Virus record (IMG/VR): IMGVR_UViG_3300043219_000113
Span: 1-42,732 of that record
Source of the DNA: a virus
Reading direction: 5' to 3' (one strand)
DNA length: 42,732 nt
The notes below the pieces were generated by a model. The model saw only the letters and a program-made list of their open reading frames with translations, had not been told where the DNA came from and ran no database searches. Position 1 is the first letter of the stretch, and every line of letters begins with the position of its first letter. The translations under genes and the position numbers were made by a program. Below, piece after piece: positions 1,785 to 14,028 of this stretch.

Positions 1785-2127
1785 TAACTTGGGTAATCAG
1801 GACAGTAAAGAGGATATGTCTGCAATTGGCCGGCAAGATGATAATGTTAATTCAGAATTGCTTCGCTATATGGATGCCTGTAAAGAAAAGAATATTAGAA
1901 TCAAAGACCTTGAGGCCCAGCTATCCAAATCGCAATGGGTGAGCGTTGAGGCTGATCTTCCCCAATATGACAATGATGTAGTTCTTGTCGCTGTCTGCCC
2001 GCCTACGCAGATGAATGGCGTCCATATGGCTTGTAGGAGAAAAGGCAGGTGGGTCGTTTTAGATGAGTCCGGCAATCACGCAGACTTTATAACTAAATGG
2101 CAACCGCTCCCAGAGGTCCCAAAATGA
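1777..2127 (+). CDS. DUF551-like phage protein
   Basis: In this 116-aa protein, residues 50-116 match the DUF551 pattern: a WVSVEADLP opening, a VLVAV strand, a central GRWV and a terminal WQPLPEVP. Short proteins of this type are common in tailed phages and their function is unknown. The N-terminal 50 residues are polar and partly coiled-coil. The start overlaps the preceding gene by 8 bp, and the stop overlaps the next start as ATGA. Confidence 0.7.
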   Translation: MSDNLGNQDSKEDMSAIGRQDDNVNSELLRYMDACKEKNIRIKDLEAQLSKSQWVSVEADLPQYDNDVVLVAVCPPTQMNGVHMACRRKGRWVVLDESGNHADFITKWQPLPEVPK

Positions 2128-2333
2128 TAACCACAGCAAACCTTATCTGGCTATTAATCGGCACTCTCTTAAGCTTCGGATGGATTAACAAGCATAAAGC
2201 CTTATTAATGGCTAACTGGGACGCTGTACGGGCTAAATACAATGAATTAGAAGGCTGGGGTACATTAATTCTGTTTATTGCTCTATGGGGCTTAGGAATG
2301 ATTGTGGCGTATAGCCTGGAGTGGATGATATGA
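2124..2333 (+). CDS. Small two-helix membrane protein
   Basis: This 69-aa protein has hydrophobic helices at about residues 5-20 (ANLIWLLIGTLLSFGW) and 45-66 (WGTLILFIALWGLGMIVAYSL). The start at 2124 was preferred over 2097 because it overlaps the preceding stop as ATGA and follows AGAGG. A holin-like role cannot be excluded, but a clear 3-TM holin gene lies beside the amidase elsewhere, so a different membrane role is more likely. Confidence 0.65.
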   Translation: MITTANLIWLLIGTLLSFGWINKHKALLMANWDAVRAKYNELEGWGTLILFIALWGLGMIVAYSLEWMI

Positions 2334-4307: not shown

Positions 4308-4547
4308 TCAAGGTTTGATTCCATTACCCACTCCCCTGCATTGAGTTTCGCCAACTACTTCCCTTGATAGGTAGCTAGGATTATCTTTACCGTCGCGGAT
4401 ATCACGTAAAGCGTTCATTGCAGTATCGCGCCATTTAATAACATGCCTGAAGTTTTTGGTTTGCCACTTCACTAACTTATTTAACCGCGCTATCTCCCTC
4501 CCCTGAGATTCGCAAGTTCTTTCAAGCGCTCGAAAATGCTCTTCCAT
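4308..4547 (-). CDS. Hypothetical coiled-coil protein, 79 aa
   Basis: Residues 1-50 form a long charged helix with coiled-coil spacing (FRALERTCESQGREIARLNKL). GGGAGA precedes the start, and an extended -10 promoter lies about 25 bp upstream. It is the first gene of a four-gene leftward cluster. Confidence 0.65.
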   Translation of the reverse strand: MEEHFRALERTCESQGREIARLNKLVKWQTKNFRHVIKWRDTAMNALRDIRDGKDNPSYLSREVVGETQCRGVGNGIKP

Positions 4548-4698: not shown

Positions 4699-4727
4699 TT
4701 GTGCATTGGACTGTATAAGTCTATATT
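4699..4727 (+). promoter_or_regulatory. Rightward promoter for a non-coding RNA (TTGTGC-17-TATATT)
   Basis: TTGTGC (4699-4704) and TATATT (4722-4727) are exactly 17 nt apart. Transcription would begin near 4734, just before a short GCGT/ACGC hairpin and the long terminator stem, with no coding frame downstream. Confidence 0.5.
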
Positions 4728-4733
4728 AGTGCT

Positions 4734-4865
4734 TGTAGGCGTGTAGGAACGCTGAACAGGAATAGAGAAAGGGTCAATAAGTTCAGGTTTTAGAGAGGCA
4801 AGGTTAATATTCCTACTTCTCTATTCCACCCCAATCTCTAGGGTCTGAATTTATTGGCCTTTTTT
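4734..4865 (+). ncRNA. Candidate small RNA with long terminator stem and loop-complementary 5' strand
   Basis: After a small GCGT/ACGC hairpin (4739-4752), bases 4769-4796 can pair almost without interruption with 4835-4862. The core is GGTCAATAAGTTCAG with CTGAATTTATTGGCC, extended by G-U pairs and TAGAGA/TCTCTA. TTTTTT (4860-4865) follows, giving an intrinsic terminator. The 11-nt strand GGAATAGAGAA (4759-4769) is perfectly complementary to TTCTCTATTCC (4817-4827) inside the apical loop, so the RNA could form a pseudoknot or an alternative fold. No open frame of note lies inside. The family was not recognised. Confidence 0.6.
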
Positions 4866-5190
4866 GTGTCTGTTGGTTTGATTTCGGGGCGGTCAATTAA
4901 AGACTAAAAGCTCCTTAACTAAATATTCGCCAGCAGACACAATCCCTCCTTTAGCCTTCCTGAGTCTGTACAGGGGTTGTAATTGTTAGTTAAAAGCTAA
5001 CTTGATCGCTCGCTACCTTCAGGGGCAGTTATTAACCCTGTACAGATTCTATCTTTAAGTACGCCTACCGAGTTGTTATTGATGAGAGTAAAGAAGGTAA
5101 GCTATTTCATCCCGTTTCTGCGGTCAAGATAGAAGCCTTGCTGGTGAGTCACATACTTTAAACAAGCGGGTTTGAGTCCCGAGGCCAGCA
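4865..5190 (+). ncRNA. Candidate multi-domain structured RNA
   Basis: Four consecutive inverted-repeat domains fill this gene-free stretch. The first is TTGTGTCTGTTGG (4865-4877) with CCAGCAGACACAA (4932-4944), one G-U pair. The second is TCTGTACAGGG (4965-4975) with CCCTGTACAGA (5036-5046), containing a GTTAG/CTAAC hairpin. The third is TTCTATCTT (5047-5055) with AAGATAGAA (5126-5134), containing ACCG/CGGT and GATGA/TCATC. The fourth is TGCTGG (5139-5144) with CCAGCA (5185-5190), containing a T-arm-like hairpin (5167-5181). Domains two and three abut exactly. The location beside phage tRNAs recalls large phage RNAs such as GOLLD and ROOL. Membership was not established. Confidence 0.5.
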
Positions 5191-5206
5191 CTCTCTTCAA
5201 TAGCAA

Positions 5207-5218
5207 CTCCCAGTCCAT
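5207..5218 (+). repeat. CTCCCAGTCCAT repeat, copy 1
   Basis: CTCCCAGTCCAT here is repeated exactly at 5791-5802. CAGTCCATATAAG (5211-5223) is repeated exactly at 5414-5426. The copies follow the structured domain, the 58-aa gene and the tRNA pair, so they mark unit boundaries. Function unknown. Confidence 0.5.
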
Positions 5219-5232
5219 ATAAGGAAAGAAAG

Positions 5233-5409
5233 ATGGCGAGCGATAAAGTTACTGTGTTTTGTCCAGAGTGCAAAGAGGAGCAGTTTATTGTCACAATAAC
5301 TGATTCTGGTAGCGGCCCGGATGAATGGGGAACTTGCCACTGGTTTTATGGTGATGGCGTGTGTTCAGAATGCGGATACAAAGGTGATTATTCAGATAGC
5401 AGCCATTAA
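5233..5409 (+). CDS. Zinc-ribbon protein, 58 aa, inside the RNA-rich region
   Basis: The product has CPEC at residues 10-13 and CSEC at 44-47, a treble-clef or zinc-ribbon arrangement, with acidic linkers. AAGGAAAGAAAG gives a good ribosome-binding site. It is the only convincing gene between 4548 and 6233 and lies between structured RNA domains and the tRNAs. It could act with those RNAs, but nothing in the sequence proves it. Confidence 0.65.
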   Translation: MASDKVTVFCPECKEEQFIVTITDSGSGPDEWGTCHWFYGDGVCSECGYKGDYSDSSH

Positions 5410-5413
5410 GCAT

Positions 5414-5426
5414 CAGTCCATATAAG
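5414..5426 (+). repeat. CAGTCCATATAAG repeat, copy 2
   Basis: This is identical over 13 bp to 5211-5223 and starts 5 bp after the stop of the 58-aa gene. It is followed by a small ATTGT-TGG-ACAAT hairpin (5430-5442). Confidence 0.45.
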
Positions 5427-5467
5427 ACATTGTTGGACAATAGAAAGAGTATTTGCTATATTGGTTG

Positions 5468-5528
5468 TGCTGGGTGCAAGTCATCGTACCCAAGAAAGAG
5501 GTTTCCCTAAAGTTCACCTCTCCCAGCA
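5468..5528 (+). ncRNA. tRNA-like 61-nt structured element
   Basis: TGCTGGG (5468-5474) pairs with CCCAGCA (5522-5528) like an acceptor stem. Inside, AGAGGT (5497-5502) pairs with ACCTCT (5516-5521), leaving a 13-nt loop. GGGT/ACCC can compete with the outer stem. No anticodon arm or D arm could be fitted, so this is not called a tRNA. The closing helix UGCUGG/CCAGCA recurs at 5139/5185 and, with one G-U pair, at 4872/4932. Confidence 0.4.
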
Positions 5529-5553
5529 TCCGAATTACAAAAGAACTTAGGCG

Positions 5554-5616
5554 GATTAAAAGCAACTTTAGAGTATAGATTTACATTTCACATTATACCC
5601 TAAAACCGTTTTAATC
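5554..5616 (+). ncRNA. Long hairpin before the tRNA pair
   Basis: GATTAAAA (5554-5561) pairs with TTTTAATC (5609-5616). Inside it, TAGAGTATA (5569-5577) pairs with TATACCCTA (5594-5602) with one A-C mismatch. It ends 14 bp before tRNA-Phe, so it may be part of the precursor or a processing signal. Confidence 0.45.
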
Positions 5617-5629
5617 GAGTTGTTATTGT

Positions 5630-5704
5630 GCACTTGTAGCTGAGACAGATTAGCGTGTGTCTGAAAAACACAAGAGATTGGAGCGTTACCAATCGAGTGC
5701 ACCA
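5630..5704 (+). tRNA. tRNA-Phe (GAA), atypical T- and D-loops
   Basis: The cloverleaf is clear. The acceptor GCACTTG/CGAGTGC (one G-U) is followed by A and encoded CCA (5702-5704). The D stem is GCT/AGC. The anticodon stem TGTGT/ACACA has loop CTGAAAA and anticodon GAA at 5663-5665. The T stem is ATTGG/CCAAT. The T-loop is AGCGTTA instead of TTCRANN, and the D-loop (GAGACAGATT) lacks the GG pair, so both partners of the usual elbow contacts are altered. It could be functional but divergent, or decaying. Only 4 nt separate it from tRNA-Cys, so they share a precursor. Confidence 0.7.
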
Positions 5705-5708
5705 AACA

Positions 5709-5783
5709 GGGTGATTGGCTGAATGGTAAGGCCGCGATCTGCAACATCGATGCTCAGTGGTTCGATTCCACTATCACCCTCCA
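5709..5783 (+). tRNA. tRNA-Cys (GCA)
   Basis: The acceptor GGGTGAT/ATCACCC has discriminator T and encoded CCA (5781-5783). The D arm GGC...GCC has GG in the loop. The anticodon stem CGAT/ATCG encloses loop CTGCAAC, anticodon GCA. The T stem AGTGG/CCACT has the normal loop TTCGATT. It is directly downstream of tRNA-Phe. Phage tRNAs usually offset codon-use differences or host tRNA cleavage. Confidence 0.85.
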
Positions 5784-5790
5784 ATAACAT

Positions 5791-5802
5791 CTCCCAGTCC
5801 AT
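5791..5802 (+). repeat. CTCCCAGTCCAT repeat, copy 3
   Basis: This is identical to 5207-5218 and lies 7 bp after the CCA end of tRNA-Cys. The stretch from here to 5867 holds no gene. Confidence 0.5.
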
Positions 5803-5867
5803 TAGACGCAGTAACAATTGACACTGGCGAAAAAGCAACTGTTATCCAAGACCATTAGGAAACACCT

Positions 5868-5973
5868 ATATTATTAATAACGTTAGAGCGCGGATAAAGC
5901 AGTGTAAGTGCAGGGCTTGGGTTGATCTCCCTACAAGGAATGTAAATAAGATGCTGCATACCGTTAATAATAT
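5868..5973 (+). ncRNA. Structured gene-free segment closed by a 10-bp inverted repeat
   Basis: ATATTATTAA (5868-5877) is perfectly complementary to TTAATAATAT (5964-5973). With a 2-nt bulge the stem extends to AACG/CGTT. Inside are GCAG/CTGC and AGGG/CCCT pairings around GGGCTTGGG, which resembles the motif copied at 5985 and 8210. No coding frame was found here. Confidence 0.4.
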
Positions 5974-5984
5974 CTGTAAAGCAA

Positions 5985-6028
5985 AGAGTATTGGCATGGG
6001 CTATGTAGCGTCCCTGCACAAACGCTCT
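5985..6028 (+). ncRNA. Duplicated structured motif, copy 1
   Basis: This element begins AGAGTATTGGCAT and ends CGCTCT, and folds as AGAG/CTCT closing a GGCA..GGG/CCC..TGC hairpin. It aligns almost fully with 8210-8252 apart from three single-base indels and one or two substitutions. It lies upstream of the attenuator-like element and the SPFH gene. Confidence 0.5.
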
Positions 6029-6080
6029 TTATGTTTGCTATGTTTTTCAATAAGTTAGAGTAAAATTATACAGGAAATGC

Positions 6081-6108
6081 TTGCATAATTAAATAAAATG
6101 ACTATTAT
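6081..6108 (+). promoter_or_regulatory. Candidate promoter (TTGCAT-16-TATTAT)
   Basis: TTGCAT and TATTAT are 16 nt apart and would start transcription near 6115, a few bases before the folded element at 6121-6216. The -10 is good and the -35 weak. Confidence 0.35.
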
Positions 6109-6114
6109 TATTAC

Positions 6115-6216
6115 TGGGTCGTGGTTGTCCCTTAACGAAGCTAAACAAGCTCTGATCTTTATCCTTTTTTGACTGCTTCGGTCACAACCACAAGGGATAG
6201 GGGTCAGAGCTTTTTT
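6115..6216 (+). promoter_or_regulatory. Attenuator or riboswitch-like leader of the SPFH gene
   Basis: Bases 6147-6167 pair with 6192-6212 in a continuous 21-bp stem with several G-U pairs (outer part AAGCTCTGA/TCAGAGCTT). TTTTTT (6211-6216) follows, a strong intrinsic terminator 18 bp before the next start codon. The upstream strand holds GTGGTTGT (6121-6128) and CGAAGC (6136-6141), perfectly complementary to ACAACCAC (6184-6191) and GCTTCG (6175-6180) in the apical loop. A pseudoknot or a competing fold could set read-through into the SPFH operon. It could instead be a separate small RNA. The topology matches 4734-4865. No known riboswitch class was recognised. Confidence 0.6.
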
Positions 6217-6233
6217 ATTATCTGGAGATTAGA

Positions 6234-7157
6234 ATGAAGATTAAATTAATTGCAGTAATTTCAGTGTTAATGGTTTTGGTGGGTTGCGGTACAAAGGTCG
6301 AGGTTCCTCCGGCTAATGTCGGGAAGATTTTAACTAAGAACGGCTTTGCGCCCGAAACGGTCCCGCCTAGTAAGTTCAGGCTTCCTGCCTGCTTGTCATA
6401 TTGTGATCGCCTGGTATTGCTTGAGGCTAGCGATAATAAGCTTGTCGAGCTGTTAACGGTCTTTATGCCGAAGGATAAGCTGAACATTACCGTTGACATT
6501 AGGGGGACGTACTCTATACCCACCTCCAAAAAATCTGTTGACTCGATTTACAGTAAGGTCGTGGCGCAGGAGATGGGGAATTCGCTATCAGCTATTACAG
6601 CTAAATCTGTTTATGCTACTTATGGTCAGCAGGCCGTTAGAGGAATTGTCCGCAGCGAAATAACTAAATATTCTATTAGCGAGGTCTTGGCTCAAAGAGA
6701 GGTAATCGGCCAGAATATTCACGCCGCTATTGCTGCAAAACTGGCGGCAACCAATACGCCAATTTCGATCAGTCGTTTTGAGCTTGCTAACATTCAGCCG
6801 CCAGCGGTTATTGTTAAAGCTCAAGAATCCGCTAAAGAGCGTGAGATTGATATTCAAAAAGCTGAGGCAGAGGCACAGATTGATCTAGTGAAGGCTGAGA
6901 GGGCGCTGGAAATAGCCAAGAAGGATCGTCTGGTTAAGCGAGAGGAAGCGGAGTCAATCGCAGAGCAGAATCGAATAGCTGCGAAATCCATCACCCCCCA
7001 GTTGCTGGCTTACAGAAAGCTTGAGACAGCTGAAAGAATTTATACCGCCTTAGCGAAATCAAATAACGTGGTTATTGTTCCGGCTGATTCATCTGGGTTT
7101 AGCAACATTAATGATAATGCCGTTCTGGCCAAGTTAATAGGAAGGGAGTTTAAGTAA
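6234..7157 (+). CDS. SPFH/band-7 (prohibitin-like) lipoprotein
   Basis: This 307-aa protein has a lipoprotein signal (residues 1-18) with lipobox LVGC, acylated Cys18. A band-7 domain follows at about 25-210 (FMPKDKLNITVDIRGTYSI...VLAQREVIGQNIHAAI...ISISRFELANIQPP). Next is a charged coiled-coil (about 195-250) and a short C-terminal region. SPFH proteins form ring or cage assemblies on membranes; HflK/HflC restrain FtsH. Lipid anchoring would place the domain in the periplasm. Its mRNA starts after an attenuator-like terminator. The next gene overlaps as TAATG and encodes a membrane protein, probably its partner. The role in infection is unknown. Confidence 0.8.
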   Translation: MKIKLIAVISVLMVLVGCGTKVEVPPANVGKILTKNGFAPETVPPSKFRLPACLSYCDRLVLLEASDNKLVELLTVFMPKDKLNITVDIRGTYSIPTSKKSVDSIYSKVVAQEMGNSLSAITAKSVYATYGQQAVRGIVRSEITKYSISEVLAQREVIGQNIHAAIAAKLAATNTPISISRFELANIQPPAVIVKAQESAKEREIDIQKAEAEAQIDLVKAERALEIAKKDRLVKREEAESIAEQNRIAAKSITPQLLAYRKLETAERIYTALAKSNNVVIVPADSSGFSNINDNAVLAKLIGREFK

Positions 7158-8197: not shown

Positions 8198-8209
8198 ATA
8201 TATACTCAC

Positions 8210-8252
8210 AGAGTATTGGCATAGGGCTTGTAGCATCCCTGCCAAACGCTCT
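8210..8252 (+). promoter_or_regulatory. Duplicated structured motif, copy 2
   Basis: This segment aligns with 5985-6028 with few changes and keeps the AGAG/CTCT and GGCA..GGG/CCC..TGCC pairings. It lies 34 bp before the gene at 8287, so a 5' leader role is plausible. Confidence 0.5.
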
Positions 8253-8286
8253 ATAGGACAATTAACTTTAATTATTGGAGATTAGG

Positions 8287-11779: not shown

Positions 11780-13741
11780 ATGACCGGCTTCCCCGCCTTT
11801 GGTGACACGACCTTTCCTAATTACATAGAGTCCTTCACCCTTGCTTCGTCAGGTGATAAGGGCTCTCTGAATGCCTCAGGTAATGTGGACTATGACTCAG
11901 CATTAGGCGCAAGAATAGGTACAACCATTACTGACGGCTCAACTTTGAGCTGGGATAATACTTTTGCTACTACCACTCACAGCCTGGATGATGGATTTAG
12001 TGTCAGTTTTGACGTAGAGAAAGGCATATTTGCGGGCACTATTGGCGGTCAGGCCGAGAATCGAACGTTATTTTTAATCGATGGAACTGAAGAGGCGGCG
12101 GTTTCACGGCAATTAACCAACACTAACTGGACCATTCTTAATGATGGAACACCCACCTTCACCGGTTATGTAACCCGGCATCAGGAATACACCACAAAGG
12201 TTAGAGTGGATATTAGCTTTGACCCCACGATCGGTAGTTTTGGCAACATCAAAGTATGGGCTAATAGATACCCGCTAATAGACCAAGACCTCTCTGCTTT
12301 GCCTGATTTTGATTCCGGACTTAATTTATCCGGATTAGGTACAGCAGGCTTTCCCAACATCTCACAGCGATTTAGCAATGTTCAGCTAATCGGCGCTCCA
12401 CTCTCATTCGATACCGTCAACAAGGTCAGGCTCTCTCATATGGGCGATAGCTGGATAGCGACCTATGGACAGCAGGAATTAGGCGGCGCAAATGATACGC
12501 CAGTCTTAACAGGTTATCAGGGTACGGAAGATAGTAGCAGTTACCTGGCCTCGGCCTCATGGAAAAACACAGCCTACGTGGCGCAGCTCACTAATGACTT
12601 GATTGAAAAGGGTATTTATCCAGACGGTGCGGCTGATCAGATGGGGTTTTATGGCCAAGATGGTGGTTTGTTAGGTGATAGTGGAGCAAAGCCCTTTGAT
12701 GAGCGTGTTGATGCCTGCTTAGCACCTCAAGGATCGGCTGGTACACCTTTCCCCTTCCCTGGTCAGGGATCAGCCACTACTGAAGTCTACATAACGCATG
12801 TAGGTACTAACAGCGTGTCTGGCTTTTCTAATGCCCAGATGGATGGCTTCTTTGCTGATTTTGAGGTTAACATTGATCGATTAATTACTGCCGGTGGCTT
12901 AGTAGTTGTGGATTTAATAACACCCCGTTACGACGGCAGCAGTATTCCCCAAGATGTTGACGAAGTTGATTACATGAACGGCCTGCTATCTTCATTGGAG
13001 GGCAGAAGGAATGCTTGTACAGTGAATACGGAAGTTAATACTTTATTTGCTGCTGATGCTACACTTGCTAACGAAATACATCCATCAAGAACGGGTCAAG
13101 TGGTATGGGCGCAAACGGTAGCGAGTGCAATAGAAAGGGTTCTTAATATGGCTATTACAATCCTTGGGAATAATGATAATACAAACGCAGTAACTAACGC
13201 TGTTAACGTGAGTACGATCCAAACAACTAATTTCGCCACTTCTGCACCTTTAGCCATCGATAGGAACTATAGGATAGTTCGATATGGGATATACGGTGAA
13301 TCACTCAACACTACAACAAAAACCAACGAAATCTATATCTATGACCATGACGGAGTGATCACTAATCTCCCCGGCATTTTTGTTACAGGTGACAATATTG
13401 AATTTACGGCAGTAGAGCCTGTCGATTTTTACTTTAAAACCCCGGACTCAGAGGTTATCCTTACCCCAGCCATGTTTCCATCAGGGTTTGCAGTGGTTGC
13501 GTTAGCTGCGACAGGTGCAACGGCAAGGGTTTATAAGGGTAGTAGTGGCGGCTCAAATGCATTTATAGACACCACTGGCGTATCGACTCCAGCTCCTGAT
13601 CCTTTCCCTGTTGCGGCGACATCACTAACAGAGTCAATTATCATATTTGTTGAGCTGGAAGAGATAGCATCGGGCGTAGCCTTAACCAGCGACCTAACGA
13701 GAGACCTAACAAGCAACTTAACATTTAATTTAACAGGATAA
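11780..13741 (+). CDS. SGNH/GDSL-hydrolase tail protein
   Basis: This 653-aa protein has a strand-rich N-terminal domain of about 210 residues that resembles a lectin-like jelly roll. An SGNH-hydrolase module follows: GDS with Ser224 (LSHMGDSWIATYG), GTN with Asn344 (THVGTNSVS), and His434 in NEIHPSRTGQ. The usual Asp two before His is Glu432. Residues 455-653 form a second strand-rich domain. Such phage enzymes remove acetyl groups from surface glycans during attachment. The ribosome-binding site is weak. Its place ahead of the terminase genes, apart from the tailspike, is unusual. Confidence 0.75.
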   Translation: MTGFPAFGDTTFPNYIESFTLASSGDKGSLNASGNVDYDSALGARIGTTITDGSTLSWDNTFATTTHSLDDGFSVSFDVEKGIFAGTIGGQAENRTLFLIDGTEEAAVSRQLTNTNWTILNDGTPTFTGYVTRHQEYTTKVRVDISFDPTIGSFGNIKVWANRYPLIDQDLSALPDFDSGLNLSGLGTAGFPNISQRFSNVQLIGAPLSFDTVNKVRLSHMGDSWIATYGQQELGGANDTPVLTGYQGTEDSSSYLASASWKNTAYVAQLTNDLIEKGIYPDGAADQMGFYGQDGGLLGDSGAKPFDERVDACLAPQGSAGTPFPFPGQGSATTEVYITHVGTNSVSGFSNAQMDGFFADFEVNIDRLITAGGLVVVDLITPRYDGSSIPQDVDEVDYMNGLLSSLEGRRNACTVNTEVNTLFAADATLANEIHPSRTGQVVWAQTVASAIERVLNMAITILGNNDNTNAVTNAVNVSTIQTTNFATSAPLAIDRNYRIVRYGIYGESLNTTTKTNEIYIYDHDGVITNLPGIFVTGDNIEFTAVEPVDFYFKTPDSEVILTPAMFPSGFAVVALAATGATARVYKGSSGGSNAFIDTTGVSTPAPDPFPVAATSLTESIIIFVELEEIASGVALTSDLTRDLTSNLTFNLTG

Positions 13742-13746
13742 AGATC

Positions 13747-14028
13747 ATGAGCGATAGAGATCAGGTAACTACACTCACCGCAAATACCAGTGCTGATGAA
13801 GTGGTTCTTGAAATGCATGGGGAATATAATGTAAGTATTCAAGGTGATATCGGCGGCGGTACACTCACGCATTATATTCATAATACAGAAGGGCGAGGGG
13901 GCGTGGCTAGAGCGGACACGACTGCCCCCTATTTAAGCAAGGTCCAGGAGTCTGAGTTCGTATTAACTGGATCCACAGCCCCTGATTTAGACATCATACT
14001 AACCCCTGTTACAGTTAATCAGGATTAA
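13747..14028 (+). CDS. Hypothetical strand-rich protein, 93 aa
   Basis: It begins 6 bp after the SGNH gene. The sequence is glycine- and threonine-rich with alternating hydrophobic strands (VVLEMHGEYNVSIQGDIGG), as in small virion decoration or fibre-associated proteins. It may assemble with the preceding tail protein. No family was recognised. Confidence 0.5.
   Translation: MSDRDQVTTLTANTSADEVVLEMHGEYNVSIQGDIGGGTLTHYIHNTEGRGGVARADTTAPYLSKVQESEFVLTGSTAPDLDIILTPVTVNQD

Follow-up and report, generated by a model that had tools for sequence, protein, structure and literature searches.

The window, that is, the whole 42.7-kb (42,732 nt) stretch of DNA analysed, is a virus record with phage terminase, portal, and major capsid genes. 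A gene for an SPFH/Band-7 lipoprotein (Pfam Band_7, E 2.4e-14; PHROG_200 lipoprotein) lies on the plus strand at 6234–7157 and heads a 28-kb plus-strand block that extends to about 33.9 kb. Upstream of the SPFH gene, a stretch of ~1.7 kb reaching back to minus-strand ORFs that end near 4547 holds tRNA genes and no ORFs of at least 60 amino acids, with one shorter ORF near 5233. The element described here, e2 (plus strand, 6116–6216), is located at the end of this stretch.

The terminator hairpin of e2 comprises 21 contiguous base pairs, 17 Watson-Crick and 4 G-U, between strand C (6147–6167) and strand C' (6192–6212). It is followed by the T6 run of an intrinsic terminator (6211–6216), two T residues of which are also paired within the stem. 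The SPFH ATG at 6234 is 17 nt from this T-run, so that, as the original prediction had stated, a terminator stands in the leader directly before the first gene. The predicted MFE of 6115–6220 is −40.2 kcal/mol (z = −5.0), far more stable than that of shuffled sequences. Part of this fold is a small 5' hairpin, H0 (6116–6131), with the sequence GGG(TCGTGGTTGT)CCC, which holds segment A (GTGGTTGT, 6121–6128) in its loop; segment B (CGAAGC, 6136–6141) lies between H0 and C. Both segments are perfectly complementary to the terminator loop, A to A' (ACAACCAC, 6184–6191) and B to B' (GCTTCG, 6175–6180), confirming the complementarity originally noted, and both pairings also occur in predicted folds. 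When only the upstream part (58 bases) was dinucleotide-shuffled, no more than 1 of 2000 trials gave two helices this strong with the loop (P = 0.0005, the floor of the test). Within the terminator loop a small hairpin, i1, is predicted (TGAC(TGCTTCG)GTCA, 6170–6184), with B' in its loop.

Upstream of e2 on the same strand is a putative sigma-70-type promoter (6080–6108) with the −35 box CTTGCA (6080–6085) or TTGCAT (6081–6086), a spacing of 16–17 nt, and the −10 box TATTAT (6103–6108), matching the consensus at 8 of 12 positions. By itself this is a weak promoter candidate, from which transcription would be predicted to start near 6115. The gap between T-run and gene is too short to hold a promoter, and transcription of the SPFH gene must therefore come by read-through of the terminator.

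Several further features of the noncoding stretch were observed. The region 4864–6031 is piecewise conserved in L006, G033 (L133/L136), G034 (L138), and G035 (L132), with conserved blocks such as TTAGACGCAGTAACAATTGACACTG and AACGTTAGAGCGCGGATAAAGCAGTG...CCCTGCACAAACGCTCT and with variable inserts that include tRNAs. Searches with Rfam, at the gathering threshold and at permissive E-values, returned only tRNAs from the window and its relatives; beyond these, cutoffs as loose as E = 5 for the window gave no convincing match, and E = 2 for L133 gave none. The region has the appearance of a large structured phage RNA not described before. A 50-nt hairpin-like block at its 3' end (5982–6031) recurs with 88% identity at 8207–8255, upstream of a gene near 8275 whose ribosome-binding region resembles that of the SPFH gene. 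A tRNA-Phe-like gene with an unusual T-loop (5630–5701; Rfam 43.8 bits), missed by ARAGORN, directly precedes tRNA-Cys (5709–5783). A tRNA-like element at 5138–5190 has acceptor-like and T-arm-like stems and a shortened middle, and over 48 nt its positions 5142–5188 are 94% identical to unannotated sequence that immediately precedes the tRNAs of Xanthomonas phage Kintu. At the contig end, positions 1–310 consist of ~20 tandem copies of the 15-bp unit GCGCAAGTYGGCAGA.

The sister element and relatives of the design in other phages

A second element in the window, e1 (4738–4865), taken here as the first element of the original prediction, has a similar design. It comprises a putative promoter (TTGTGC-17-TATATT, 4699–4727), a predicted H0 hairpin GGCGT(GTAGGA)ACGCT (4738–4753) holding A (GTAGGAA, 4743–4749), segment B (GGAATAGAGAA, 4759–4769), identified from complementarity and predicted folds, and a terminator (4772–4865), all on the plus strand. 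The terminator is formed by C (4772–4786) and C' (4845–4859), with A' (4810–4816) and B' (4817–4827) in the loop and the T-run at 4860–4865. The two elements had been described as sharing one strand order, which is correct in that A, B, and C come first and C' last in both; the order of the loop segments differs, e2 being nested (A B C B' A' C') and e1 tandem, with crossing pairs (A B C A' B' C'). The e1 family comprises copies in five phages, the window and four other contigs, and in every copy a GTGTCTG hairpin comes next, followed by an ncRNA region. With helix segments picked by hand for the counts, 34 of 35 cells of A:A' are paired in the five copies, with compensatory change at 5 of 7 positions, and C:C' is paired in all 75 cells, with compensatory change at 3 of 15 pairs.

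About a dozen further elements of the e2 design were found in related phages. They share a plan in which a sigma-70-like promoter is followed by A, B, and C, a loop containing A' and B', C', and a T-run. The nested layout of e2 is present, in unrelated letters, in L006, L057, both elements of Pseudomonas phage AH02, and Lbo-JY16/L151, and more weakly in L108; the tandem layout of e1 is present in L090. In L006, the closest terminase relative (77%), the element reads TTTGGTC-CACAAGC-C-GCTTGTG-GACCAAA-C'-T7, the order of e2 in other letters and before a different gene. One AH02 element precedes gene 51 and the other lies 16 nt before an HNH gene. The gene-51 element has a relative of 71% DNA identity in Leptolyngbya phages and also a relative in two IMG/VR contigs, standing before a recombination operon. 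In the comparison of AH02, Lbo-JY16, and L151, which also have i1-like hairpins, 8 of 31 pairs of the terminator fold are changed on both sides, and none of 500 shuffles attains this number. Segment A does not vary in this family, and B shows one compensatory pair, a value met by 175 of 500 shuffles. A search of bacterial genomes with the A-segment pattern of AH02 gave five matches, none with the terminator layout.

Eight elements have their T-run about 3–20 nt upstream of a start codon (those of the window, L006, L108, L119, Lbo-JY16, and L151 and the two of AH02, with L119 assigned by eye), and a promoter-like site is present upstream of A in several of these. In L057, L090, and the e1 copies, a similar unit heads an ncRNA region, with no gene directly next; the promoters of L057 and L090 are stronger (11 of 12 consensus positions) and placed as in e2. 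The regions downstream of the relatives thus include an HNH gene, a recombination operon, unknown genes, and ncRNA regions, and the e2-type element is not tied to SPFH. In the nearest SPFH relative, the 90-kb L002 (66% identity), an array of tRNAs stands ahead of the SPFH gene, and no such terminator is present; several tRNA-like genes precede the gene there (5300–5960), as tRNAs do in the window. Downstream of the e1-like element of L090, a 103-nt tRNA match with an insertion (2065–2167, minus strand) was missed by ARAGORN.

No close homologue of e2 was found when the noncoding region was compared with phages by blast, which places its A and B pairs beyond a covariation test, and support for them comes from the analogy in layout. 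The layout of the loop complementarity is kept from phage to phage, and the e1 family adds compensatory change, the reverse of the lack of conservation that the original prediction had named as evidence against it. In the shuffle test of A and B against the loop, P was 0.0005 for e2, L057, and L090, 0.014 for e1, and 0.027 for L006; L108 (P = 0.15) and L035 did not pass. A strict scan for a strong hairpin with a T-run and two upstream-loop helices (score ≥ 36) was run on 1.7 Mb, made up of the window, ~80 relatives found through their terminase, the remaining parts of their contigs, and related isolates. It gave 9 matches (8 distinct), compared with a total of 1 when the whole set was simulated 12 times with a first-order Markov model. 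In a looser architecture scan, which allowed wobble pairs and loops of up to 90, simulated sequence yielded as many matches as real sequence, and our claim is therefore based on the strict scan only. L034, L064, L012, and similar matches of the looser scan were set aside as likely chance. Segment A lies within the H0 hairpin loop in most elements, with a combined P of 2.5e-4 from copies that are not independent; for e2 alone this placement is not significant (P = 0.34). The structure is real and conserved in its design, and the sequence together with its comparison across phages shows both helix sets, the shared layout, and a placement at the 5' end of transcription units.

Two competing folds and their likely function

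The predicted fold of the full-length element is the terminator in 14 of 14 elements, whereas in transcripts cut just before C' it contains A:A' and/or B:B' in 13 of 14, both being MFE predictions that ignore pseudoknots and kinetics. For the growing e2 chain the predicted fold switches between 6201 and 6204. Since B nearly abuts C, with a spacing of 0–5 nt across elements, B:B' and the full C stem would exclude each other sterically. Judging from linker lengths, A:A' on its own could form as a loop contact while C is paired. Full coexistence of C with both A:A' and B:B' as an H-type pseudoknot was also considered, and was rejected in view of the linker lengths of 0–5 nt. The relatives retain both shapes despite changed letters, which indicates that this is probably a genuine on/off switch. 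The alternative fold that excludes the terminator is conserved, by covariation in the e1 family only and by shared layout in e2.

We consider it probable, from the sequence and the modelled folds, that e2 acts in cis, close to its promoter, as a bistable attenuator of transcription in the SPFH operon leader. Starting at about 6115, at the putative promoter, RNA polymerase would first make H0 with A, B, and the 5' strand of C, followed by B' and A'. Before C' emerges, A:A' and B:B' would pair, with a predicted energy of −18 to −19.5 kcal/mol, leaving the 5' strand of C shut in between them. If this early fold lasts through synthesis of the T-run, read-through into the SPFH gene would result. 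Should it be prevented, or be left long enough to refold, C:C' would form as the more stable hairpin (about −39 kcal/mol), transcription would stop at 6211–6216, and an RNA of ~100 nt would be released. The choice between the two could be kinetic or controlled by a factor, and candidate triggers are the speed of the polymerase, a protein of the phage or host, and an antisense RNA, for which the released leader could itself serve. The transcription start, the kinetic competition and order of folding in the cell, and read-through as the regulated step are the inferred parts of this model. The switching leader originally proposed is thus retained as far as it concerns a terminator alternating with a competing fold directly before a gene, for which predicted folds and conserved layout speak; the proposed riboswitch and a special link to SPFH are not.

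The same parts could instead make up a stand-alone sRNA gene of ~100 nt, with its own promoter, a pseudoknotted or kissing 5' hairpin, and a 3' terminator, acting in trans or simply stabilised by A:A', with read-through into SPFH being incidental. Promoter-like sites directly precede the elements, those of L057 and L090 being the strongest, and would fit such a gene, as would the position of L057, L090, and e1 away from the immediate upstream side of a coding gene. From steric considerations A:A', with A in the H0 loop and A' in the terminator loop, could form alongside C. In addition, the e2 C strand (6153–6165) is a perfect 13-nt complement, possibly by chance, of the ribosome-binding region (13735–13747) before the gene at 13747. 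However, B:B' excludes the terminator, which would be needless in a plain sRNA, and the short distance from terminator to start codon in the eight gene-proximal elements leaves no space for a second promoter. Read-through as the only way to reach the gene speaks for an attenuator more than for a plain terminator or a free sRNA, and we regard the sRNA gene as rather unlikely.

A leader resembling lambda pR'-tR', in which a phage antitermination protein of Q or N type overcomes the terminator and A and B only modulate pausing or protein loading, appears less likely still. The layout is the same, with a promoter, a short leader, a large-loop terminator, and a long operon, here the 28-kb block; the e2 promoter agrees weakly with the consensus. 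Lambda tR' (25-nt loop) was detected by our scan at a relaxed threshold, and P22 Plate-tlate is annotated as such a leader. The two-helix complementarity in lambda is nevertheless weak (score 30), P22 has no such element in the scan, and no Q or N homologue was present among the window proteins scanned, a subset of the ORFs, Q proteins being diverse. It is very improbable that e2 is an ordinary terminator of the upstream tRNA/ncRNA unit with loop complementarity by chance. The tRNA-Cys, the second tRNA-like gene, and the conserved ncRNA do lie just upstream on the same strand, but the shuffle and null scans, the recurrence of the layout in other phages, the compensatory A:A' changes in e1, and an SPFH gene that has no promoter downstream of the terminator argue against this explanation. 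A metabolite riboswitch, for which the leader position and the terminator would speak, can be practically dismissed, since no Rfam riboswitch or aptamer core was matched, no common unpaired core was found across elements outside A, B, and C, complementarity is conserved while the letters vary, and the downstream genes have no common pathway.

The bistable attenuator that we favour for e2 may, more tentatively, exemplify an undescribed class of phage leader RNA switches across unrelated phages (a Pseudomonas phage, Leptolyngbya cyanophages, and many metagenomic contigs), defined by complementarity of the terminator loop to a 5' hairpin loop and the linker that follows it. The terminated leader might then feed back in trans on nascent leaders, giving operon control by RNA only. 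Such a class would represent a general, protein-independent switch heading phage operons, with letters free to vary while the two competing folds are kept, and this freedom would let it escape sequence searches and explain its absence from Rfam. RNA-based control outside the P4/P1 systems would be directly testable in the cultured phage AH02, whose host is Pseudomonas koreensis, and the element could find use as a compact transcription switch.

Comparison with known leader systems

As in classical 1-2-3-4 attenuators (trp type, T-box, and riboswitch platforms), e2 is predicted to have two exclusive folds, one of which is an intrinsic terminator. In the classical systems the antiterminator uses a strand of the terminator stem, whereas in e2 the upstream segments pair with the terminator loop, trapping the 5' stem strand in the competing hairpin. 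The lambda pR'-tR' (6S RNA) and P22 Plate-tlate leaders, which are governed by Q-type proteins loaded at the promoter, also have a promoter-proximal terminator before a long operon, with a large loop in lambda, but lack strong A/B complementarity. The P4 SeqA/IsrK leaders with the CI (C4) antisense RNA resemble e2 in having a phage promoter, a short leader with its own intrinsic terminator, read-through into the operon, and control by RNA-RNA pairing, as described for IsrK and P4 in PMC4825925. They differ in that the terminator loop carries no complement of the leader's own 5' part, the partner being a separate RNA encoded downstream. The Rfam models for isrK/P4 SeqA RNA (RF01394) and C4 antisense RNA (RF01695) gave no match in the window or its relatives, whereas both were found in P4 as the positive control, and C4-like antisense complementarity was not enriched downstream of e1. 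As no downstream antisense RNA is apparent either, membership of the P4 system is not claimed. IsrK is made both as a terminated short RNA and as a read-through mRNA on which the short form acts (PMC4825925), and feedback by the released leader is on this model a reasonable guess for e2, not a finding. The best reading of e2 from its sequence is a bistable attenuator of a kind absent from Rfam, a variant of phage leader attenuators with a putative function, and among known systems it comes closest to the P4 SeqA/IsrK leaders and the late leaders of lambda and P22.
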